Under the pieces are notes generated by a model. It had not been told where the DNA came from and did no database searches. It saw only the letters and a program-made list of their open reading frames with translations. A program made the position numbers and the translations under genes. Shown one piece after another: positions 38,623 to 50,158 of a stretch of DNA of 64,000 nt (the first letter of the stretch is position 1; every line of letters begins with the position of its first letter). The DNA comes from Sulfuritalea sp. GTDB lineage: Bacteria > Pseudomonadota > Gammaproteobacteria > Burkholderiales > Rhodocyclaceae. The stretch spans positions 62,001-126,000 of the forward strand of contig NZ_JAFLDR010000003.1 in assembly GCF_017302275.1 (NCBI RefSeq), written 5' to 3'.

Positions 38623-38718
38623 TGGCGGAAGAGAGAGGGAGTCGAACCCACCAGGGACCGCGTGGCGACCCCTGCCGGTTTTGAAGACCGGCCGCCCCAC
38701 CGGGGAACGTTCTCTTCC
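38623..38718 (-). tRNA. selC: tRNA-Sec (anticodon UCA)
   Basis: A 96-nt minus-strand tRNA with an eight-base-pair acceptor stem (GGAAGAGA/TCTCTTCC), a long variable arm, anticodon loop CTTCAAA giving UCA, T-loop TTCGACT, and encoded CCA at 38623-38625. It aligns well with known bacterial selC in layout. It lies nine bases after the selB stop and before the lipoprotein gene, so it may be excised from a selAB read-through transcript. Confidence 0.97.
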
Positions 38719-38727
38719 ATTGTTGAT

Positions 38728-40668
38728 TTACTCATCGAGCCATGCATGGGTGGTCGCGCCGCCGCGCAGCAGGTGCTCATCGCGCACGCGGCGAGTGTAG
38801 CCGATGCGATCGAAGAATTCGAGGATCTGGATCGCCACCTTGCGCCCGCCGCCACCATCGCCGTAGATGATGTCGCGCAGATCGGCGGCACGCGCCATTC
38901 CACGCTCCGCGTTCAGGCGCCGGACGATGGCGGCCAGGTTCGCGACCGCGGCGGCGGTGAAGTAATGGTCGTGGGCAACCGGGTAAAGCTCGCCACCGCG
39001 CGCCATGCGGCGGAACAACTGGCGTACCACGTCTTCGGCGGTGCCGCTGGCGCGGAACACGTCGCGCACGCGCGGCGGGTTGAACGGCGCCGCGTCGAGC
39101 AGCGGCTTCAAGACGGTGAACAGGTCCCGGTCGCCGGCCGAGACGCTGGCGACGTGCCCGGGCAGGTGCAGCCAGGCACGGGTCTGCGCAATCCCGCCGG
39201 CGGCCAGCAGTTCGCCGACCAGGGCATCGAAGGCGGCACGCGGCAGGTTGGCGGAGGTCATGCGCCGCAGGCGTTCGCGCTCGACGCCGGTCAGGTCCGG
39301 GGCGCGTTCGTGCTCGCGCGCCAGGACATCGAGAAGGCGCCGTTCCAGCGCAGACCAGGCCGCGCCGGCAAACCCGAGGCGCCCTTCGCCGTCGCGGACC
39401 AGCGTCAGTCCGGCGCGCGCCCACAACGCCTCCGCCTCGGGCGCGGCAAGGTTCCAGGCGGCAGCGAAGCGCGCGAGGTCGACGCCAGCGCCAGTTCGTG
39501 CGGCGAGCAGGGAAAGCGTCGGCAGCGGATCATTGTCGCGCATCGCCGCCAGCAGGGCGAGCCGCTCGGCGCTGCGCTTGTGTCGCGTCGGCGGAAAAAT
39601 GTCGAGCACGCGCCCGCCGCCGACGCTGCGCTGCGCGCCGGCATCGCGCAGCACGAAGCGGTCGCCGCGCAAGGCCAGGGTTTCGCGTTCGAGCAGGATT
39701 TCCACCAGCGCCGCCTCGCCGGCGCCGGCTTCCGCGCAATCGAGCAAGGCGACGCGCCCCATGATGTCCTCGGCGCCCAGATGCACATGCACGGTCTGCA
39801 GGTGCCGCAGCGCCGCCTGTCCGGGCGGCACGCGCAGTTCGCCCTGGAATCGGCGCAATGGGATCGCGAGTGCGGGGTCGACCACCCACATGCCACGTTC
39901 GATGTCGCGCTTTTCGAAGTCGCCGACCAGCGCCAGCGCGCAACGCTCGCCGGCCTGCCCCTGCTGCGCGGGCCGATCCTGCACGTGCAGGCTGCGTACG
40001 CGCGCTCGAAGTTGTCCGCTGCGCCCCGGCGGCGACACGATCACCGTGTCGCCAGCGCCGACTTTTCCGGAATGGGCCGTGCCAGTGACCACCGTGCCGG
40101 CGCCGGCGAGGCTGAAACAGCGATCGATGGCCAGCCGGAAGCGACCTTGCGCCAATGCGCGCGCGGTGCCGGCGGCGACCGCATCGAGGTGTGCGCGCAA
40201 TGCGGGCACGCCCTCGCCGCCGCGGGCCGAAAGCGGAAACACCGGGCTGCCGGCGAGCCCGGTTCCGGCCAACAGCGCCGCCACCTCGGCCTGCGCCTCC
40301 GCCAGCCGTTGCGGCGTCACGACGTCGATCTTGTTCAGTGCGACGGCGCCGCGCGTGAGGCCGAGCAGGTCAAGCAGTTCCAGGTGCTCGCGCGTCTGCG
40401 GCATCGGGCCGTCGTCGGCGGCAATCACCAGCAGCACGAAGTCGATGCCGGTGGCGCCGGCCAGCATGTTGTGGATAAGCTTCTCGTGGCCCGGCACATC
40501 GACGAAGCCCAGCACCGAGCCGTCGGCCAGGGCTGTGTAGGCGTAGCCCAGGTCGAGCGTGATGCCGCGCGCCTTTTCCTCTGGCAGGCGATCGGCATCG
40601 ACGCCGGTGAGCGCCTTCACCAGCGTGGTCTTGCCGTGGTCGATGTGACCCGCGGTGCCGATCAGCAT
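38728..40668 (-). CDS. selB: selenocysteine-specific elongation factor SelB
   Basis: A 646-residue GTPase delivering Sec-tRNA to UGA codons bound by SECIS. It has G1 [14 protein letters not shown]3 DVPGHE and NKID G4 (ALNKIDVV). EF-Tu-like domains 2 and 3 follow, then C-terminal winged helices for SECIS binding. Residues 207-214 (KVGAGDTV) are encoded by the 25-bp repeat at 40042-40066. SelB relatives also have a V..GD segment there. ATG overlaps the selA stop by seven bases. Confidence 0.97.
40042..40066 (-). repeat. 25-bp dispersed repeat, inside selB
   Basis: A copy with one mismatch to consensus, in the direction of the gene, read as K-V-G-A-G-D-T-V. Confidence 0.9.
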
Positions 40669-42062
40669 CGTCCGACTTCCAGGCCCGCCAGCGCGGCGGC
40701 GAACGCTGTCTCTTCGTCCGGTTCGAGGCAGCGCAGGTCGAGCAGCAGGGCGCCATCCTCGATGCGGCCGATCACAGGCTTGGGCAGGGCGCGCAAGGCC
40801 GCCTCGATGCGGTTCAGCACGCCGCCTTTCCTGCCTTGCGGACGGATGGAGAAACCGGCTGAGGGCAGGCGGTCGACGGGCAGCGAGCCGGAGCCGATCT
40901 GCGATTTCAGCGCGACGATTTCCGCCGTCACCGGCAGGCCGGCCAGCGCGTTTTTCAGCGTCGGCAGCAGGCGTTCGGCGGCGGCTCGAATCTCGACTTC
41001 GGGCCGCGTCAATTGGCGCACGGCGGTGACGCGCAGGTGCAGGCGGTCGGGATCGCGGTAGAGCGCCAGCACGGCTTCCAGCGCGGCCAGCGTCAGCTTG
41101 CCGACGCGCAAGGCGCGCTTCAGCGGGTTCTTCTTGATCCTGGCGATCAGGTCGCGGCGCCCGACCAGCAGGCCGGCCTGCGGCCCGCCCAGCAGTTTGT
41201 CGCCGGAGAAGGTGACGAGATCAGCGCCGGCGGCGATGGCTTCGCGCGGCGTCGGTTCGTGCGGCAGGCCGTAGGCGGAGAGGTCGCTCAGCGTGCCGCT
41301 GCCGAGGTCGACGACGAAGGGCAGATTGTTCTGGTGCGCCAGTGCGGCGAGTTCGGCTTCGGGCACGGCATGGGTGAAACCGTGGATCGCGTAGTTGCTG
41401 GCATGCACCTTCATCAGCATCGCGGTGCGCGGGCCGAGGTTCTCGGCGAAGTCCCTGAGGTGGGTGCGGTTGGTGGTGCCGACTTCGACCAGCTTCGCGC
41501 CGGCGCGGCTCATGATGTCGGGCACGCGGAAGGCGCCACCGATCTCGATCAATTCACCGCGCGAGACGATGACCTCCTTCTTCTGCGCCAGGGTGTTGAG
41601 CAGCAGGAACACGGCGGCGGCATTGTTGTTCACCACCGTCGCCGCCTCGGCCCCGGTGAGTTCGCAGAGCAGTTCATCGACCACGCTGTCGCGGTCGCCG
41701 CGGCCGCCGGAGGCTATGTCGTACTCCAGCGCGCAAGGCGAACGCGCGGCGGCGATCAGCGCCTGCACGGCTTCCTCGGGCAGCGGCGCGCGACCGAGGT
41801 TGGTGTGCAGCACGGTGCCGGTGAGATTGAACACCGGGCGCAGCTTTGGCGTCGTTTTCGCCGTGACGCCAGCGCCGACTCTTGTGATCAGCGCGTCCTC
41901 GCTTGGCATGGCACCCCCTTGCTTCACGGCCTCGCGCGCGGCGCCCAGCACCTCGCGCACAACCCCGGTGACAATGGCGCGGCCATGCAGATCGATCAGG
42001 GAGGAAACCGTCGCGGCGGAAAGCAGGCGGTCGACGGAGGGAAGCAGGGAGAGCGGATTCAT
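40662..42062 (-). CDS. selA: L-seryl-tRNA(Sec) selenium transferase
   Basis: A 466-residue PLP enzyme converting Ser-tRNA(Sec) to Sec-tRNA(Sec) with selenophosphate. Landmarks: [37 protein letters not shown], and the PLP lysine in [15 protein letters not shown] (K289). Near residue 60 the segment [12 protein letters not shown] is encoded by the 25-bp repeat. The ATG at 42062 gives [14 protein letters not shown], which matches the family N-terminus. It heads selA-selB-selC. Confidence 0.97.
41859..41883 (-). repeat. 25-bp dispersed repeat, inside selA
   Basis: A copy with two mismatches, oriented with the gene, read as R-V-G-A-G-V-T-A. Confidence 0.85.
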
Positions 42063-42232
42063 GATTTCACCCGGACCGGGCAGAAACGAGATCGATTTAT
42101 TGTAGCGGCTTCCGTGCGGTGGCGGGCCTTGACATGAGTCATTGCCCGCTACCGCGCGCGAACCATAGTATCGATGCAAACCCGGCGTGCAGGATTCGCG
42201 CCACGAGACCGGACTCATGCGAGGAGCGCCAC

Positions 42233-42973
42233 ATGAACAAGCACAATCCGTCGAAAATATCGACTTGGCTCAGGCTCCTGGGCATCGAGCTCAGTCCGGT
42301 CAGCCATCGCGAACGACTGGTGTCGGCGCTAGGCGGCTGCTTCGGTATTTTCGCTGTGTATTGGATCAGCAATGCCGTACTTGGCAGTGCCGCCTCGCCT
42401 ATCCTGCTGCTGTCGATGGGTTCCACCGCCGTCATGCTCTTCGCGGTGCCGCACGGCGCCCTGTCGCAGCCCTGGCCGCTGCTCGGCGGCCACCTGGTGT
42501 CAGGGCTGATCGGCATCGCCTGCCTGCTGTACGTGCCGGATCCGATGCTGGCCGCCAGCCTGGGCGTCGGCCTGGCCATCGGCGCCATGCACTATCTGCG
42601 CTGCATCCATCCGCCCGCGGGCGCCACGGCACTGGCCGCCGCACTCGGCGACGCCTCGGTGCGCGCCATGGGTTTCGGCTTCGTCGTCGCCCCCGTGATG
42701 CTCAACGTCCTGATCATCCTGGTCGCAGCCGTCGCCTTCAACGCCCTGTTTCCCTGGCGCCGCTACCCGGCTGCGCTGGTGCGCGGCGGCGCAGCGCCAG
42801 CGCCGCCGGCTGGATACGAGTCCATTTCACACGAGGACTTTGTCTACGCGCTGACCCAAATGGATTCCTTCATCGATGTCTCCGAGGAAGACCTGCTGCG
42901 CATCTACAGCCTTGCCACCGGCCGCCGCGATACCGGGGCGGCCGGCAATGTCAGCTCTTCTGCGCCTTCCTGA
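42233..42973 (+). CDS. HPP-family membrane protein
   Basis: A 246-residue protein with four to five hydrophobic helices and the family motif [14 protein letters not shown] proteins are integral membrane proteins implicated in nitrite or other small-solute transport. The C-terminal 60 residues ([28 protein letters not shown]) form a soluble domain. It is divergent from selA, and its 3' end overlaps the convergent selenoprotein-like gene by 23 bases. Confidence 0.85.
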
Positions 42974-43454
42974 AGGCGGCGAAATCACCACCCTTCAGGT
43001 AATGTTTCTCGGCCACGTAACGGTCGAGCAGCAGCGCGTCGTCGACGGTCTTTAGCCCGCCGGTCAAGCGCGCAACCTCCTTGCCCGCGCCGTCGAGGAA
43101 GACCAGCACCGGCCGCAGCTTGCGCGGATTGTGGCGCTTGACCATCGCGTGCAGCGGGTCCTTGTCGTCGAGTTCCAGCTCGCCGAAATCGGCATGGGCG
43201 CCGAGGAAATGCTTCGAGTATTTCGCGGTGACTTCGGGCTTCTTGAGCACACTCACGGTGTAGCGACAAGCCCCTCAGTTCAAATGATCGCCGAAGTACA
43301 GCATGACGTGGCGGTCGGGCTGCTGCTTCGCCGCCGCCAGCGCGGCGTGGTCATCGGCATGCAAGGGCAGCACGCCGTCGAGATGGTCCGCCGCGGCCGG
43401 CAGGCTGAAGGCAGCGGCGCAAAGAAATGCGAGCAGGGCAAGCAGGCGCTTCAT
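42951..43454 (-). CDS. predicted selenocysteine-containing thioredoxin-like protein (UGA at codon 60)
   Basis: A 167-residue secreted thioredoxin-fold protein if the in-frame UGA at 43275-43277 is read as selenocysteine. The first part has a signal peptide (LLALLAFLCAAAFSLPAAA) and ends HVMLYFGDHLN. After the UGA comes G-A-C-R-Y-T, then KKPEVTAKYSKHFLGAHADFGELELDD and a Trx-like C-terminal part (RPVLVFLDGAGKEVARLTGG). The UGA therefore occupies the first Cys of a CxxC site, giving U60-G-A-C63. A hairpin suitable as a bacterial SECIS follows the UGA (43236-43273). selA, selB and selC lie close by. Shine-Dalgarno AAGGAGA precedes the ATG at 43454. Confidence 0.75.
43236..43273 (-). promoter_or_regulatory. 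candidate bacterial SECIS hairpin of the thioredoxin-like gene
   Basis: Directly after the UGA, GGGCTT and AAGCCC can pair as an outer stem. ACAC and GTGT form an inner stem with loop CGTGA at about 18-22 bases past the UGA. This matches the position of the apical loop in known bacterial SECIS elements. Pairing was done by eye. Confidence 0.5.
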
Positions 43455-43556
43455 GGGTTCTCCTTGGGACGAGGTTACTGGCAGACAGTGTAGGCTGAAG
43501 TTTGGTTCCGTGAAATGCCTCGGGGTTCCGTCCGCGGGTAAGCGATGAAACGAAAT

Positions 43557-43581
43557 CACCGTGTCGCCAGCGCCGACTCTT
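43557..43581 (-). repeat. 25-bp dispersed repeat, downstream of fdhE
   Basis: Near-consensus, just past the fdhE stop. The 24 bases at its upstream end are identical to those at selB (40042-40066) except for one position. Confidence 0.9.
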
Positions 43582-43586
43582 GCAAT

Positions 43587-44513
43587 TCAGCCCCCGGGCA
43601 CCAGCAGCAGATTGGGCCCGCTGCGCGAATAGCCGGCTTCGTCGACCAGGATGTCGAGCGCCAGGGTGGCGAGGTCGTCGGCCACCGGATCGACGGGTGC
43701 CTTCTCGGCATACACGATCTTCAGGTAGCTCTTGCAGGCCTCGCAGGTTTCGGCGCGCACCGCGTCTGGCCCGGGCTGGCCGGTCCCGGTTTCGAGGTAA
43801 CGGTAACCGATGCCTTCGGTGGCGTCACAGGCGGAGCACTTGACGCGCACGAGGTTCCACTCGGTGTTGCACAAGGCGCAGTGCAGGTAGCGCAGGTTGC
43901 CGACCTCGCCGGCGCCGCGCACCACGCTGGCCACGGGCAGGAAGCCGCAACAGGGGCAGACGCCGGGCACGTCGAGCGCGACAATCTCGGCAACGCCGAG
44001 GCGGGCAGCGCCGGCTGTCCAGAGCACCTGCAGGGCGGCGCCGACATAAGGCAGCAAGGCGGCATCCGGCCCGTAGAGCTCGGTATGCAGCACGCGCTCG
44101 GCCAGGGCTTCGATCCGCTCGGCATCGTAGGCGGCAAGCCGCGCCAGATCATCGCGCGCCATGTCCGGCGCGTCGCGGGCCACGGCGGCGACAATCAGGG
44201 AAAGGCTGTCGCGCCAGGCGGCGGAACGCGGCCAGGATTGTGCCGGCAGGGGCGGCATGCGGTGTTCGCGCGCCACGCCCATGCGTGCCGCATCCGGCAA
44301 ATCCAGCGCGGGCATGGCCTGCAGGGCCAGGTGCTGGGCGCGGCTGATGGCACCGAGGAAGCGCAGCCAGTCGCCCAGGCTGTGGCCGTCGGCGAGTTGC
44401 TCGAAGCGCAGTGCGCGCTGGCTGAAAAGTGTCGCGGGGTCGGGCGCGATGACGTGGGGCGGCTCGCTGCTCGACTTGATGGGAATGATCGGGGCTTGGA
44501 AAGTGGCGCTCAT
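43587..44513 (-). CDS. fdhE: formate dehydrogenase accessory protein FdhE
   Basis: A 308-residue rubredoxin-like protein required for maturation of respiratory formate dehydrogenase. It has the family's CxxC pairs (VPGVCPCCGFLPVASVV, HCALCNTEWN, KCSACDATEGI, ETCEACKSYLK). Its location next to fdnGHI fits. The ATG at 44513 was chosen since it gives the family N-terminal length. Confidence 0.96.
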   Translation of the reverse strand: MSATFQAPIIPIKSSSEPPHVIAPDPATLFSQRALRFEQLADGHSLGDWLRFLGAISRAQHLALQAMPALDLPDAARMGVAREHRMPPLPAQSWPRSAAWRDSLSLIVAAVARDAPDMARDDLARLAAYDAERIEALAERVLHTELYGPDAALLPYVGAALQVLWTAGAARLGVAEIVALDVPGVCPCCGFLPVASVVRGAGEVGNLRYLHCALCNTEWNLVRVKCSACDATEGIGYRYLETGTGQPGPDAVRAETCEACKSYLKIVYAEKAPVDPVADDLATLALDILVDEAGYSRSGPNLLLVPGG

Positions 44514-44596: not shown

Positions 44597-45220
44597 TCAG
44601 GACTTGCCGGTGACCTGACGGTACCAGGCGCGGTGATGCTGCTTGGCCCAGGCGCGGGTGACCGTGCCATAGACCATCGCCCGCACCGTGCCGCGAACCC
44701 AGAGCGCGGCATAGACATGGACGAAGATCATCGCGATCATGATCGCGGCGACCGCCGAATGCACCACCGCGCCCAGGCGCACCACATCCACCGGCAGGTT
44801 GAAGTAGGCGCGCCACAGGAAGACGCCGGAAACGAACAGGAGCAGCATGCACAGCGCCATGGCCCAGAACATCGCCTTCTGCCCGCCGTTGTACTTGCCC
44901 TGTTCCGGCATGTTGTGGTCGTTGCCGCTGACCATCTCGCCGGCCCGCGAGAGCCATTCCTTGTCCGCCGGCGTCATCACGTTGAGCGACTTGAAGCGGA
45001 AGAACATCACCAGGAAGGCCAGCGCCATGAGAACGCCGAGGAAGGGGTGCAGGATGCGCGCCCAGACCCCGCCGCCGAAGAGCTGCGTCAGTGGATAAAA
45101 GGCCGGATGGAAGAAGGCCAGGCCGGACAGCGCGAGCAGGATGAAGCAGATGCCGACGAGCCAGTGATTGGCCCGCTCCTGCGCGTCGTAGCGCGTGAGG
45201 TCTTTCGGATTGCGGATCAT
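44597..45220 (-). CDS. fdnI: formate dehydrogenase cytochrome b556 subunit (gamma)
   Basis: A 207-residue membrane di-heme b-type subunit that passes electrons to the quinone pool. Four membrane helices with conserved His (RANHWLVGICFILLALSGLAFF, LHPFLGVLMALAFLVMFF, VVHSAVAAIMIAMIFVHVYAAL). It follows fdnH with repeat B copy 3 between them. Confidence 0.96.
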   Translation of the reverse strand: MIRNPKDLTRYDAQERANHWLVGICFILLALSGLAFFHPAFYPLTQLFGGGVWARILHPFLGVLMALAFLVMFFRFKSLNVMTPADKEWLSRAGEMVSGNDHNMPEQGKYNGGQKAMFWAMALCMLLLFVSGVFLWRAYFNLPVDVVRLGAVVHSAVAAIMIAMIFVHVYAALWVRGTVRAMVYGTVTRAWAKQHHRAWYRQVTGKS

Positions 45221-45231
45221 GATGCTGCCTC

Positions 45232-45344
45232 CGATGGGCCGCCCCGAGGGGGCAGCGAGTCAACAAGCTGGAAGCCGCGCAGCGGCTGAACCGTCGTTAC
45301 CCCCTTCCGCGGGAAGGGGGCTAGGGGGATGGTCGTTTTCATTT
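45232..45344 (+). repeat. intergenic repeat B, copy 3
   Basis: GGGCCGCCCC, the GCAGCG.GTCAACAAGCT and CCGCGCAGCGGCTGAACCGT blocks, and the CCCCCTTCC/GGAAGGGGG hairpin. It lies inside the fdn operon between fdnH and fdnI, opposite in direction to the genes, so here it cannot supply a ribosome binding site. Confidence 0.8.
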
Positions 45345-46223
45345 CTCCTCCTTCTCCAGTTCGTCCTCAAGCTCCTTGCTGACCTCGTTCGGACCCTTCA
45401 TCACGTAGTGGAACAGGCTGCCCAATGCCACGGCAGCCATGGCCACAGTGGCCACCGGCTTGGCGATGCCCTTCCACAACGACACCAGCGGACTGATACT
45501 GGGATTGTTGGGCAGGCCCTTGTAGAGCTCCGGCCGGTCGGCGTGGTGCAGCACGTACATGACGTGCGTGCCGCCCACCCCTGCCGGATCATAGAGCCCC
45601 GCCTTGTCGTAGCCGCGCATCTTCAGGTCGACCACTCGCTTCGCCGCGTAATCCTTCATCTGCTCCTTGGAGCCAAACTGGATCGCACCGGTCGGGCAGA
45701 CCTTGGCGCAGGCCGGCGCCTGGCCGACGGCGACGCGGTCGGAACACAGCGAGCACTTGTAGGCCTTGTTGTCTTCCTGCGAGATGCGCGGGATGTTGAA
45801 GGGACAGCCGGTGATGCAATAGCCGCAGCCGATGCAGTTTTCCTGGTGGAAATCGACGATGCCGTTGGCGTACTGGATGATGGCGCCGGGGGCCGGGCAG
45901 GCCTTGAGGCAGCCCGGATCGGCGCAATGCATGCAGCCGTCCTTGCGGATCAGCCACTCCAGCTTGCCCTTTTCCTCGACTTCGGCGAAGCGCATCACGG
46001 TCCACGACTTGGCCGTCAGGTCGATCGGGTTGTCGTAGACGCCGTGGTTGACGCCGACCTCGTCGCGAATGTCGTTCCATTCCATGCAGGCCGCCTGGCA
46101 GGCCTTGCAGCCGATGCAGGTGGACACGTCGATCAGCTTGGCCACTTCCGTGGTCTGCCGGACGCCGGGTGCCGGTGTGGTCGTCGCCGAGCGGCGGGCG
46201 ATATCTAGCGATTGCAATGCCAT
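45339..46223 (-). CDS. fdnH: formate dehydrogenase iron-sulfur subunit (beta)
   Basis: A 294-residue subunit with four [4Fe-4S] cysteine clusters ([71 protein letters not shown]) and a C-terminal membrane helix ([14 protein letters not shown]) anchoring it. It carries electrons from FdnG to FdnI. Confidence 0.97.
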
Positions 46224-46235
46224 GTCATATCCCCC

Positions 46236-49200
46236 TTAGATCTTCTCGATGTTGACCAGGAACGCCTTGTATTCTGGCGTCTGGCAATTGGCGTCGCCGA
46301 CGAACGGCGTCAGCGTGTTGGTGATGAAGCCCGGCTTGGTGACCCCCTTGAAGCCCCAGTGGATCGGAATGCCCACGGTGTGCACCTTCTTGCCGTCGAC
46401 GTCGAGCGTCTTGATCCGCTTGGTGACCACGGCCACGGCCTTGATGAAGCCGCGGTTGCTGCGCACCTTGACCTTGTCGCCGGTGGCAATGCCCTTCTCC
46501 TGCGCCAGTTGCTCGCTGATCTCGACGAACTGGTCGGGTTGCAGCACGGCATTGATCATCGAGTGCTTGGTCCAGTAATGGAAGTGCTCGACGAGGCGGT
46601 AGGTAGTGGCCACGTAGGGGAAGTCCTTCGCCTTGCCGAAGGTTTCCATGTCGCCCTTGAACACCCGTGCCGCCGGATTGCTGATGGCCTTGGGGTTGTT
46701 GGGATGGAAAGGATTCTTGTCCAGCGGCGTCTCGAAGGGCTCGTAATGCTCGGGGAAGGGACCGTCGGCCATGGCCGGCGCGAAAAGCCGCGCCACGCCT
46801 TCCGGGGTCATGATGAAGGGCATCACCCCCTCGTCGGGTGCCGCGTCGGGCCGCATGTCTGGCACGTCGTTGCCGCCCCAGGCCGTGCCGGTCCACTTGA
46901 TCACCGTGCGCTTCGGGTCCCACGGCTTGCCGGAAAGGTCGCAACTGGCACGGTTGTAGAGGATGCGCCGGTTGGCCGGCCAGGCGAAGCCCCAGTTCAG
47001 CGATTGGCCCAGCCCGGTGGGGTCGGAGTTGTCGCGCCGCGCCGTGAGGTTGCCCGCCTGCGACCAGCAGCCGCCGTAGATCCAGTTGCCGCAGGACGTG
47101 CTGCCATCGTCCCGCAGTTGCGCGAAGCCGGCCACCTGCTCGCCGGCCTTGACGATGACCTTGGTCTTGTCCTTGGGATCGAAGACGTCGCCCAGCGCCT
47201 TGCCGGAAATCTCCATGAGGAGTTCCGCCGGCGACGGCTTGGCCGGGATGCGGTAGGGCCAGGTCAGGTTCATGATCGGCTCGGGCAGCTTGCCGCCGTC
47301 CTTGGCATACATCGCCCTGAGCTTGAGGAACAGCGCCGCCAGGATCTCGATGTCGCCCTTCGACTCACCGGGACCGTCGGCCGCCTTCCAGTGCCACTGG
47401 ATGACGCGACCGGAGCTGGTGAAGCTGGCCGTCTCTTCGGCGAAGAGGTTGGCCGGCAGGCGGAATACCTCGGTCGCGACCTTGGTCGGGTCGACCTCGT
47501 TGAACTCGCCGTGCGGCTTCCAGAACTCCGAGGTATCGGTGGCCAGCGGATCGATGACGACCAGGAACTTGAGCTTGGCCAGCGCATCGGCCACCTTCTT
47601 CTTGTTCGCCACCGAGGCCAGCGGGTTGAAGCCCTGGCAGAAGAAGCCGTTCATCTTGCCCTGGTGCATGCGCTCGAACATCGCCAGCACGTCGTAGGCA
47701 CCATCCTTCTTCGGCAGCCAGTCGTAGCCGTAGTCGTTCTTGTCGGTCGCCGCCGCCCCGTACCAGGCCTTCTGCAGGCTGGTGAACCACTTCGGGAAGT
47801 TCTGCGGGAAGTTCATCTGGTTCGGCCGCAGCGGTTTCGGCGTACGCTTTTCCAGATAGGTCTTGCGATCGACGTCGGCATCGGTCGGCGCCGACAGGTA
47901 GCCGGGCAGTACTTCCGAATACAGGCACATGTCGGTGATGCCCTGCACGTTGGCGTGGCCGCGCAGCGCGTTGATGCCGCCGCCCGCCATGCCCATGTTG
48001 CCGAGCAGGAGCTGGATCAGGGCCATGGTGCGAATGTTCTGCGAGCCGACCGAATGCTCGGTCCAGCCCAGCGCATAACAGATCGTCATGGTCTTGTCGG
48101 GTGCCGCCGTCTCCGCGATCATTTCGCAGATCTTGAGGAAGGCGTCCTGCGGCGTGCCGGTGGTCTTGCTCACCAACTCGGGCGTGTAGCGGCTGTAGTG
48201 CTTCTTCAGCAACTGGAAGACGCAGTTCGGGCTTTCCAGGGTCGGATCGACCATGGCGAAGCCGTCCTTGCCGATCTGGTACTTCCAGGTGTCCTTGCCA
48301 TAGCTGCGCTTCTCGGCGTTGTAGCCGGAGAACAGGCCGTCCTCGAACTTGAAGCCCTCGTCGATCAGGAAGGCGGCGTTGGTGTAGTTCTTGACGTACT
48401 CGTGATGGATCTTGTCCTTCGACAGCAGGTAGTTGATGACGCCGCCGAGGAAGGCGATGTCGGAACCGGCGCGAATCGGCGCGTAGAAGTCGGAAACGGC
48501 GGCCGAGCGCGTGAAGCGCGGGTCGACCACGATCAGCCGGGCCTTGCGGTCCTTCTTCGCTTCGATGACCCACTTGAAACCGCAGGGATGCGCTTCGGCG
48601 GCATTGCCGCCCATGACGATCACCAGGTCCGAATTCTTCAGATCGACCCAGTGATTGGTCATTGCACCACGCCCAAATGTCGGACCCAGACTGGATACCG
48701 TGGGGGCGTGTCAAATACGTGCTTGCGTGTCGAGTGCGACGACTCCGAGGTTGCGCAGGATCTTGCTGGTGAGGTAGCCGGCTTCATTGCCGGCGGCCGA
48801 CGAGGCGAGGAAACCGGTGGTGTTCCAGCGGTTGACGGTCACGCCGTCGGCATTCTTCTCGATCAGGTTGGCGTCGCGGTCCTTCTTGACGTGGGCCGCG
48901 ATGCGGTTGATCGCGTCATCCCAGGAGATGCGCTTCCACTCGTTGCTGCCGGCTTCGCGCACTTCGGGAAACTTGAGCCGGTTCGGGCTCTTGACCATGT
49001 CCATCAGGCCGGCACCCTTGGGGCACAGCGTACCGCGATTCACGGGATTGTCCGGATCGCCCTCGATGTGGATGATGTCCGCTTTCGCGTTCTTGGACTT
49101 GTCGCCCGTGGTGTAGATCAGGACCCCGCAACTGACCGAGCAGTAGGGGCACATGTTGCGGGTTTCCGTGGCGTGGGCCAGCTTGTAGCTGCGCACCTCC

Positions 49201-49298
49201 GCCAGGGCCGATGTGGGCGAGAATCCCATCAAAGCAATGGATGACCCGCTCATGCCGGCGCCGCAGATCTTGAAGAACTGCCGCCGTGAGACTTGCAT
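46236..49298 (-). CDS. fdnG: selenocysteine-containing formate dehydrogenase, major (alpha) subunit
   Basis: A 1020-residue molybdopterin oxidoreductase that oxidises formate in the periplasm. A twin-arginine signal (SRRQFFKICGAG) is followed by the [4Fe-4S] motif C-P-Y-C-S-V-S-C and the Mo-bisMGD domains. The codon at 48711-48713 is TGA in frame (residue 196, the same position as in E. coli FdnG). It is flanked by DTQARI and HAPTVSSLGPTFGRGA, so it encodes selenocysteine. The ATG at 49298 has GGAGGAGT upstream. Gene finders will split it into two parts. Repeat-free. Confidence 0.97.
48668..48710 (-). promoter_or_regulatory. SECIS element of fdnG
   Basis: CACGCCC and GGGCGTG form a seven-base outer stem. 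Inner pairs CGG/CCG and ATCC/GGGT enclose loop AGTCT, which resembles the E. coli formate dehydrogenase loop containing GUCU. It begins directly after the TGA. Confidence 0.85.
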
Positions 49299-49428
49299 CT
49301 GACTCCTCCTTTTTTGTTTGATTTCCAGCATTGACAGCCGGACAAGTATCTGCTTCCGTACGAGCGAAAGCAATGCTTCAAACAGGATTTCTTATGCCGC
49401 ATAGCAGCATCTACGGACGCGCGGAACG

Positions 49429-49480: not shown

Positions 49481-50158
49481 TCAGCCGCCGGCGGCGAAGC
49501 GCTTTTCGATCTCGGCCGCCGGTATGTAGCCACCGACACGCTCGCCGCCGGCAAAGAAGATAGCCGGCGTACCGTTGATGCGCAGCTTGCCGCCCAGTTG
49601 CGCGGACTTGTTCAGACCGGAGGTGTCGCACTTGCCCGACGCCGCGGGCGGCGCCTTGTTGGCAGTCATCCAGTCGACCCAGGCCTTGGCCTTGTCCGGC
49701 GCACACCAAATGGCCTTCGATTTTTCGTAGGAATCGTCGCCCAGCACCGGCAGCAGGAAGGTGTACACGGTCACGTCCTTCAGCGTCAGCACGTCCTTCG
49801 CCAGCTTCTTGCAATAACCGCAGTTGGGATCCTCGAAAGTGACCATTACGTTCTTGCCGTTGCCGCGAACCTGCTTGAGCGCCAGATCCAGCGGCAGCGC
49901 GTTGAACTGCCGCTCGGCAGTGATGTTCCGGCCGGTCTTCATGTCGAGCAGGTTGCCGAAGATCAGGTATGACGCCTTGTCGTCTACATAAAAGATCTGG
50001 CTATCCACGGTTACCTCCCACAATCCCGGCATGGGGGCCTTGACCAACTTTTCGACCTTGCCCAGCTTGGCTTCGGCGGCCTTTCTCACATCGGACTCGT
50101 CGGCGATGGCGGCGAGGGACACGCAGGCCAGGGCGGCTGCAAGCAGGGACGGTTTCAT
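49481..50158 (-). CDS. dsbC: DsbC-like periplasmic disulfide isomerase
   Basis: A 225-residue secreted thioredoxin-fold protein: signal peptide (LLAAALACVSLAA), DsbC N-terminal dimerisation region (GLWEVTVDSQIFYVDDKASYLIFGNLLD), and active site C-G-Y-C in FEDPNCGYCKKLAKDV; cis-Pro segment NGTPAIFFAGG. It sits 20 bases after the UbiH-like gene and ahead of fdnG, same strand. Confidence 0.93.
   Translation of the reverse strand: MKPSLLAAALACVSLAAIADESDVRKAAEAKLGKVEKLVKAPMPGLWEVTVDSQIFYVDDKASYLIFGNLLDMKTGRNITAERQFNALPLDLALKQVRGNGKNVMVTFEDPNCGYCKKLAKDVLTLKDVTVYTFLLPVLGDDSYEKSKAIWCAPDKAKAWVDWMTANKAPPAASGKCDTSGLNKSAQLGGKLRINGTPAIFFAGGERVGGYIPAAEIEKRFAAGG

Follow-up and report, generated by a model that had tools for sequence, protein, structure and literature searches.

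The stretch of DNA analysed here (hereafter the window; 64,000 nucleotides from Sulfuritalea sp., contig NZ_JAFLDR010000003.1) carries, among genes for formate dehydrogenase and for selenocysteine (Sec) decoding, a thioredoxin-fold gene whose frame is interrupted by a UGA codon. The question that this locus raises is whether the codon ends the protein or is decoded as Sec and, if so, what the resulting protein would do. The gene, for which the name SecTrx is coined here, very probably encodes a protein with selenocysteine at its active site. Taken as a whole, the explanation in which we place high confidence is that of an exported thioredoxin-fold selenoprotein, made by way of SelB and a hairpin after the UGA, that would act as a UxxC reductase with formate dehydrogenase as a likely client. 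The features of the region are collected in Table 1.

Table 1. Features of the SecTrx region, in window coordinates
Feature	Position	Strand	Details
selC, tRNA-Sec	38623..38718	-	anticodon tca
selB	38728..40668	-	TIGR00475, 436.7 bits (cut-off 242.25)
selA	40662..42062	-	TIGR00474, 587.9 bits (cut-off 267.9)
HPP-family membrane protein gene	42119..42973	+	PF04982, E 7.6e-45 on 42239-42970; start codon provisional
SecTrx, thioredoxin-fold gene with in-frame UGA, candidate selenoprotein	42951..43454	-	167 codons + terminal TGA
Wider stem-loop after UGA	43236..43274	-	fold -14.2 kcal/mol; lower stem varies between species
SECIS candidate core	43247..43264	-	GC-U-ACAC CGUGA GUGU-GC; bulged U, GU in loop
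In-frame UGA, codon 60, first residue of UxxC (U60-G-A-C63)	43275..43277	-	motif N-U-G-A-C
Putative Sec-type signal peptide, N-terminal hydrophobic stretch with AxA	43389..43454	-	by eye
Shine-Dalgarno-like AAGGAG, 5' of SecTrx ATG	43460..43465	-	from the sequence
fdhE, directly upstream of SecTrx	43587..44513	-	TIGR01562, 265.5 bits (cut-off 187.65)
Formate dehydrogenase cytochrome b (gamma) subunit	44597..45220	-	TIGR01583, 190.5 bits (cut-off 115.85)
Formate dehydrogenase beta subunit	45339..46223	-	TIGR01582, 474 bits (cut-off 334.7)
Formate dehydrogenase alpha subunit (fdhA)	46236..49373	-	TIGR01553, 1495.5 bits (cut-off 814.2); start codon provisional
SECIS of fdhA	48658..48716	-	Rfam SECIS_3, 77.5 bits, E 1.4e-16
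Sec UGA of fdhA	48711-48713	-	

The minus-strand frame 43454..42951 is interrupted only once, by the UGA at 43277..43275, as seen in both the sequence and its translation. An earlier note on this DNA had described a signal-peptide-like start and a thioredoxin-like C-terminus lying in one frame and split by the UGA only, and had foreseen that automatic annotation would report two truncated proteins. The sequence and the frame bear out this description, and mechanical ORF calling does cut the gene into two pieces, 43275..43559 (94 aa) and 42951..43256 (101 aa). A GGAG, AGGA or GAGG motif is found within 18 bases 5' of the start in 31 of the 32 SecTrx genes compared below. The HPP gene stands between SecTrx and selA, is convergent with SecTrx and overlaps it at the 3' ends. 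The Sec machinery that had been called complete is indeed adjacent, with selA and selB over their TIGR cut-offs and selC beside them, the word complete covering these three genes only. A DsbC-type gene is placed at window 49481-50158, just upstream of fdhA, so that thiol oxidoreductase genes flank the fdh-sel cluster at two points.

A search of 60 relatives and of the window's own genome with the read-through protein gave 27 places, in which all full-length matches contain one in-frame UGA, located at the same codon in the 26 of 26 matches read out. Scanning the contigs of public genomes turned up 33 loci, labelled Sulfuritalea or Rhodocyclales/Rhodocyclaceae, and the 30 that are full-length all carry the UGA (30/30). 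Together with the window and one further genome these 30 make up a set of 32 distinct SecTrx genes, in which the relatives are 61-92% identical to the window protein. Codon 60 is UGA in the whole set (32/32) and never UAG or UAA, while the terminal stop is variable (26 TGA, 5 TAG and 1 TAA). The dN/dS ratio is 0.284 before the UGA and 0.296 after it, or 0.283 with the SECIS codons left out, these values being means over all pairs, which are not independent. The likeness of the two sides indicates that the UGA is no protein end, since a true stop would leave no such selection downstream, and the combination by which a selenoprotein is recognized, a kept in-frame UGA followed by coding selection, is found here. 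The concern of the earlier note that the UGA might be a sequencing error or a disabling mutation, for which it pointed to sister genomes, is thus answered by a codon kept in every distinct gene and by purifying selection on both of its sides.

Stop-free homologues were found in other families, a profile of the UGA proteins giving a match in 83 of the 369 genomes of the class. Among the 59 loci aligned to this profile four have UGA, two stop short of the site and 53 have Cys. Both the UGA column and the position three residues further on are occupied by Cys in all of the aligned stretches that reach the site (55/55, from 53 loci), mostly as CPFC or CPYC, in a search whose profile had Cys at the UGA column and therefore favoured Cys-bearing matches. 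Homologues lacking a cysteine at this position, which would have spoken against a selenoprotein, did not appear among the 53 loci reaching it, and the expected CxxC was present at all of them. The five Cys homologues tested are Thioredoxin_2 (PF13098) proteins, and the best NCBIfam scores of the Cys relatives are to DsbH, far below its cut-off. A Cys paralogue with 33% identity is present in the window's own genome (G000:C63). A close Cys orthologue of SecTrx was not found, all the Cys relatives found being distant.

The hairpin that had been placed at the right distance after the UGA could be recognized in a SECIS candidate with a UGA-to-loop spacing of 17 nt, a loop of 5 nt with G-U at positions 2-3, and an upper stem of 6 bp with one bulge. 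The 42-nt MFE ranges from -9.8 to -23.1 in the 32 SecTrx genes (32/32). The published rules for bacterial SECIS elements, namely a loop of 3-9 nt, a stem of 4-16 bp, G at loop position 1-2, a spacing of 16-37 nt and an MFE up to -7.5 (Fig 2 legend of PMC13188914), all hold for this hairpin. The stem pairs of the core are invariant in 32/32 genes, the last loop base alone being variable, and codons 64-69 (CGC TAC ACC GTG AGT GTG) show no synonymous variation among the same 32 genes. These codons lie within the most conserved 7-codon window of conserved residues, with 5 of 20000 permutations as extreme, and the three genes with a residue other than serine at position 68 use GGT and CGT, which preserve the GT. 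For the fdhA SECIS of the window the fold is CGG-U-AUCCA GUC UGGGU-CCG. Counted from the U of the UGA, the bulged U is at nt 16 and the GU at 22-23 in SecTrx, and at 17 and 23-24 in the fdhA element, so the two geometries differ by at most 1 nt. E. coli SelB contacts a bulged U and a loop GU at such places. As a separate observation, L043, L060 and the window (48667-48713) share the same 47 nt counted from the fdhA UGA, though their SecTrx proteins have diverged.

The folding energy alone is unremarkable, with z values of -1.39, -2.68 and 0.26 across three species; the first of these belongs to the 42 nt of the window, where 19 of 200 shuffles fold as well. Taken by itself, the core has an energy of only -3.5 kcal/mol, and the exact core is contained in the single-sequence MFE structure of only 14 of 26 genes. 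A relaxed Rfam search (E up to 5) did not find a SECIS at SecTrx, and its four matches look like chance. The covariation test was uninformative, as the six upper pairs never vary, which leaves the core without covariation support, and the four tested pairs of the lower stem are for the most part unpaired. It is the frozen synonymous codons 64-69, together with a stem identical in 32/32 genes, that place the hairpin above chance.

Within the genus SecTrx is present in 26 of 31 genomes. Of these 26, 25 have a selB above its cut-off, as does one of the five genomes without SecTrx. In the one SecTrx genome without such a selB (G019, 83% complete) the SecTrx contig carries selA and breaks off shortly past that gene (L050). 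Counting sel genes, SecTrx is found in 26 of the 27 genomes that have them and in none of the four that do not (Fisher p 0.00016), so that the association with the Sec machinery, first remarked at this one locus, holds across the genus. A tRNA-Sec over the cut-off is present in 23 of the 31 genomes and in 22 of the 26 with SecTrx, the remaining four being 70-85% complete. SecTrx is usually placed between fdhE and selA, with selA downstream in 26/30 loci and fdhE upstream in 22/30. Within the locus stretch examined eight of the 30 lack fdhE and four lack selA, and in three of these four selB is found about 6-12 kb away on the contig. One Sec-decoding genome that is 99% complete (G017) has the fdh-HPP-sel cluster without SecTrx there; its loci L146 and L147 keep fdhB-fdhC-fdhE, HPP, selA and selB. 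A second selB, 36% identical to that of the window and adjoined by a second tRNA-Sec match, was also seen in this genome. Two different SecTrx clusters (L034 and L062) were seen in the G025 bin, which has 10% contamination and may hold two species.

The AlphaFold model of SecTrx (pLDDT 85.4, pTM 0.80, 20 sequences) displays a thioredoxin fold, in which the motif is predicted at the start of the first helix (residues 61-70) after a strand (residues 49-55), with U60 between the two. Foldseek gave 32 matches at E up to 0.001, and the top folds are DsbH (2ju5), a Xylella disulphide isomerase (3fk8), thioredoxin-fold proteins of Bacteroides and Helicobacter, and DsbD-gamma. The sequence search of the PDB gave nothing significant, the best thioredoxin match being again 2ju5 (E 0.44). 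In the mechanism that we propose, SelB, attached to the hairpin that closely follows the UGA, would deliver Sec-tRNA-Sec to codon 60, and translation would pass this codon to give a protein whose active site, U60-G-A-C63, lies where an alpha helix begins. The selenol-thiol pair, placed in the periplasm, may then act on partner proteins by reducing (or isomerising) their disulfides or oxidised Sec/Cys residues, with a mode of action maybe like that of DsbH or of the C-terminal domain of DsbD. A function as periplasmic selenol-thiol reductase is suggested by the predicted fold and the genomic setting. The position of SecTrx between fdhE and selA makes an oxidised periplasmic formate dehydrogenase a likely client, and the loci without fdhE (8/30) or without selA (4/30) mean that this client is not compelled.

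In the family (199 genomes) eight genomes carry the UGA form; three of these eight belong to other genera, and these three have selB over the cut-off. Among the matches listed for the 369 genomes of the class, UGA was seen in the window's genome only, and among those listed for 395 genomes from the phylum to which a Desulfarculaceae genome belongs there was no SecTrx, eight of these genomes having distant stop-free matches. A search of the order (399 genomes) revealed one more UGA gene, in another family (G844), whose genome has selB over the cut-off, and the use of this gene to search 74 genomes of that family gave four intact UGA genes and a broken one. This second, diverged UGA clade (clade B) comprises the intact L165, L166, L167 and L168 and the broken L169, with the genes around 1501-2019; L169 is broken further downstream of its UGA. 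The intact genes are 47-51% identical among themselves, with motifs U-A-G-C, U-S-Q-C, U-S-L-C and U-S-A-C, and two hairpins follow the UGA, one of which, with CUCUCC-GG[C/G]-GGAGAG, is kept in all five. In L165 the first hairpin likewise has a bulged U, with GUCA as its loop. No sel or fdh genes were seen within about 1.5 kb on either side of the clade B genes.

A first tree (96 rows, with 80 of 108 Cys rows sampled) placed a long-branched Cys row, L112, on the Sec side, and the support for that side was only 81 (SH-aLRT). For a second tree nine named long or distant Cys rows were dropped and 45 of the rest were drawn at random, and the UGA rows were 12 of the 32 clade A genes and the 4 of clade B (16 UGA and 45 Cys rows). 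In this second tree both UGA clades are located on one side of a branch against the Cys homologues (100/96), and Cys genes are absent from inside the UGA side. A single Sec origin of both UGA clades is likely from these sequences; the placement of L112 in the first tree and the selection of rows for the second keep it likely, not settled. At least two of the clade B genomes (G1399 and G1418) also hold a distant Cys homologue, so that the UGA form appears to be a line of its own, with Sec only.

These data can be set against other readings of the UGA. A pseudogene or a sequencing error, in which translation stops at the UGA and what follows is a relic frame, would agree with the two pieces delivered by ordinary gene callers and with the broken state of the diverged L169, but a UGA at one codon in 32 genes from many assemblies, an equal dN/dS before and after it, and relatives that are no near-copies make this highly improbable, and it was rejected on sequence grounds. 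Read-through with an ordinary amino acid by a near-cognate tRNA draws what room it has from the fact that Sec insertion is inferred from sequence; against it stand the Cys of the homologues at the UGA position, the way in which SecTrx tracks the sel genes within the genus, the element with fdhA SECIS geometry after the UGA and a codon that is always UGA, and it was likewise rejected as very improbable. A third possibility accepts a real selenoprotein and adds that its UGA and SECIS gauge selenium, with leader read-through tuning selAB translation or mRNA decay. In its favour, selA follows the end of SecTrx by about 40-54 nt, in the same orientation, in L049, L052 and L056, but in the window and in 21/30 loci the convergent HPP gene intervenes, and the SecTrx protein itself is under clear purifying selection, so that this added role is improbable.

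The alternatives are more evenly matched as regards the client of a Sec-containing SecTrx. A general periplasmic thiol reductase without a special tie to formate dehydrogenase, its linkage reflecting shared dependence on sel genes only, has close to an even chance: selA is found downstream of SecTrx at more loci than fdhE is upstream, and clade B has neither sel nor fdh genes nearby, but in the window and in many relatives SecTrx follows fdhE directly. The most specific form of the formate dehydrogenase proposal, in which a putative selenol reductase of the fdh-sel cluster keeps the Sec/Cys residues of the exported enzyme reduced or repaired and belongs to a Sec-only subfamily older than the split of two families of the order, for which no close Cys orthologue was found, is put forward tentatively and is, in its entirety, rather unlikely.

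In the accessible part of the 2006 survey (PMC1794560) FdhA is the sole selenoprotein family of Sec-decoding Betaproteobacteria, and SecTrx would be a second one, encoded in the cluster to which the host owes its Sec trait. Annotation that ends proteins at UGA still leaves prokaryotic selenoproteins undercounted, and Sec-only families escape methods that depend on Cys homologues, as pointed out in the 2025 prediction paper (PMC12013277, as far as its text was available). The SecTrx clade offers a basis for building an NCBI-type annotation model, as well as a simple system for asking what SelB reads, with one cluster, two selenoproteins, one SelB and two SECIS elements of like geometry.

With respect to known systems, SecTrx appears to be an undescribed selenoprotein family, the best reading being that it forms a new subfamily, with Sec only, among the periplasmic UxxC reductases of DsbH/DsbD-gamma-like type. 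A literature search, mostly without subscription papers, found nothing on a Sulfuritalea selenoprotein or selenocysteine and nothing related for a Rhodocyclaceae selenoprotein, and the case is not mentioned in the available portions of a 2016 survey (PMC5029168) and of the 2025 paper (PMC12013277). The earlier note had proposed a new selenoprotein: the selenoprotein part is supported, and the word new needs care because UxxC thioredoxin-fold selenoproteins are already known, one of them under PF13098 (Table 1 of PMC13188914). This 2026 catalogue, in the part consulted, holds 119 selenoprotein families or subfamilies, and the nearest entry is a PF13098 UxxC 'thiol:disulfide interchange protein' with WP_011366075.1 as representative (PMC13188914 Table 1, PMC9312934), recorded in Table 3 of the 2006 survey (PMC1794560) in Syntrophus and Geobacter, with none in Betaproteobacteria. 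Both are bacterial proteins with a Thioredoxin_2-type fold and Sec first in UxxC, but SecTrx falls below the gathering score of PF13098 (27), with 20.2 bits for the window protein and 16.3 and 24.7 for L059 and L060 of clade A. In clade B, L166 (32.6) and L168 (30.9) are over this score and L165 gives no match.

Other thioredoxin-like selenoproteins are represented in NCBIfam by TsoB (NF045694), SaoT, HUIPC (NF047660) and VPGUxxT (NF041383), and the window protein finds no match at E up to 1 in these or any other NCBIfam models. The best score among five other UGA proteins tested is that of L060 to TsoB (25.6 bits, where the cut-off is 805), and the few relatives that match TsoB or DsbH do so weakly, far below the cut-offs. 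FdhA resembles SecTrx as a selenoprotein of the same cluster with a SECIS of like geometry, but the proteins are unrelated. The nearest solved folds are those of DsbH (2ju5; NF043050) and the C-terminal domain of DsbD. The DsbH model (cut-off 190) does not match the window protein at E up to 1 and gives 21.3 bits for L060. DsbH is, as SecTrx is predicted to be, an exported single-domain reductase, and the active site sets them apart, with CxxC in DsbH and DsbD and UxxC in SecTrx.
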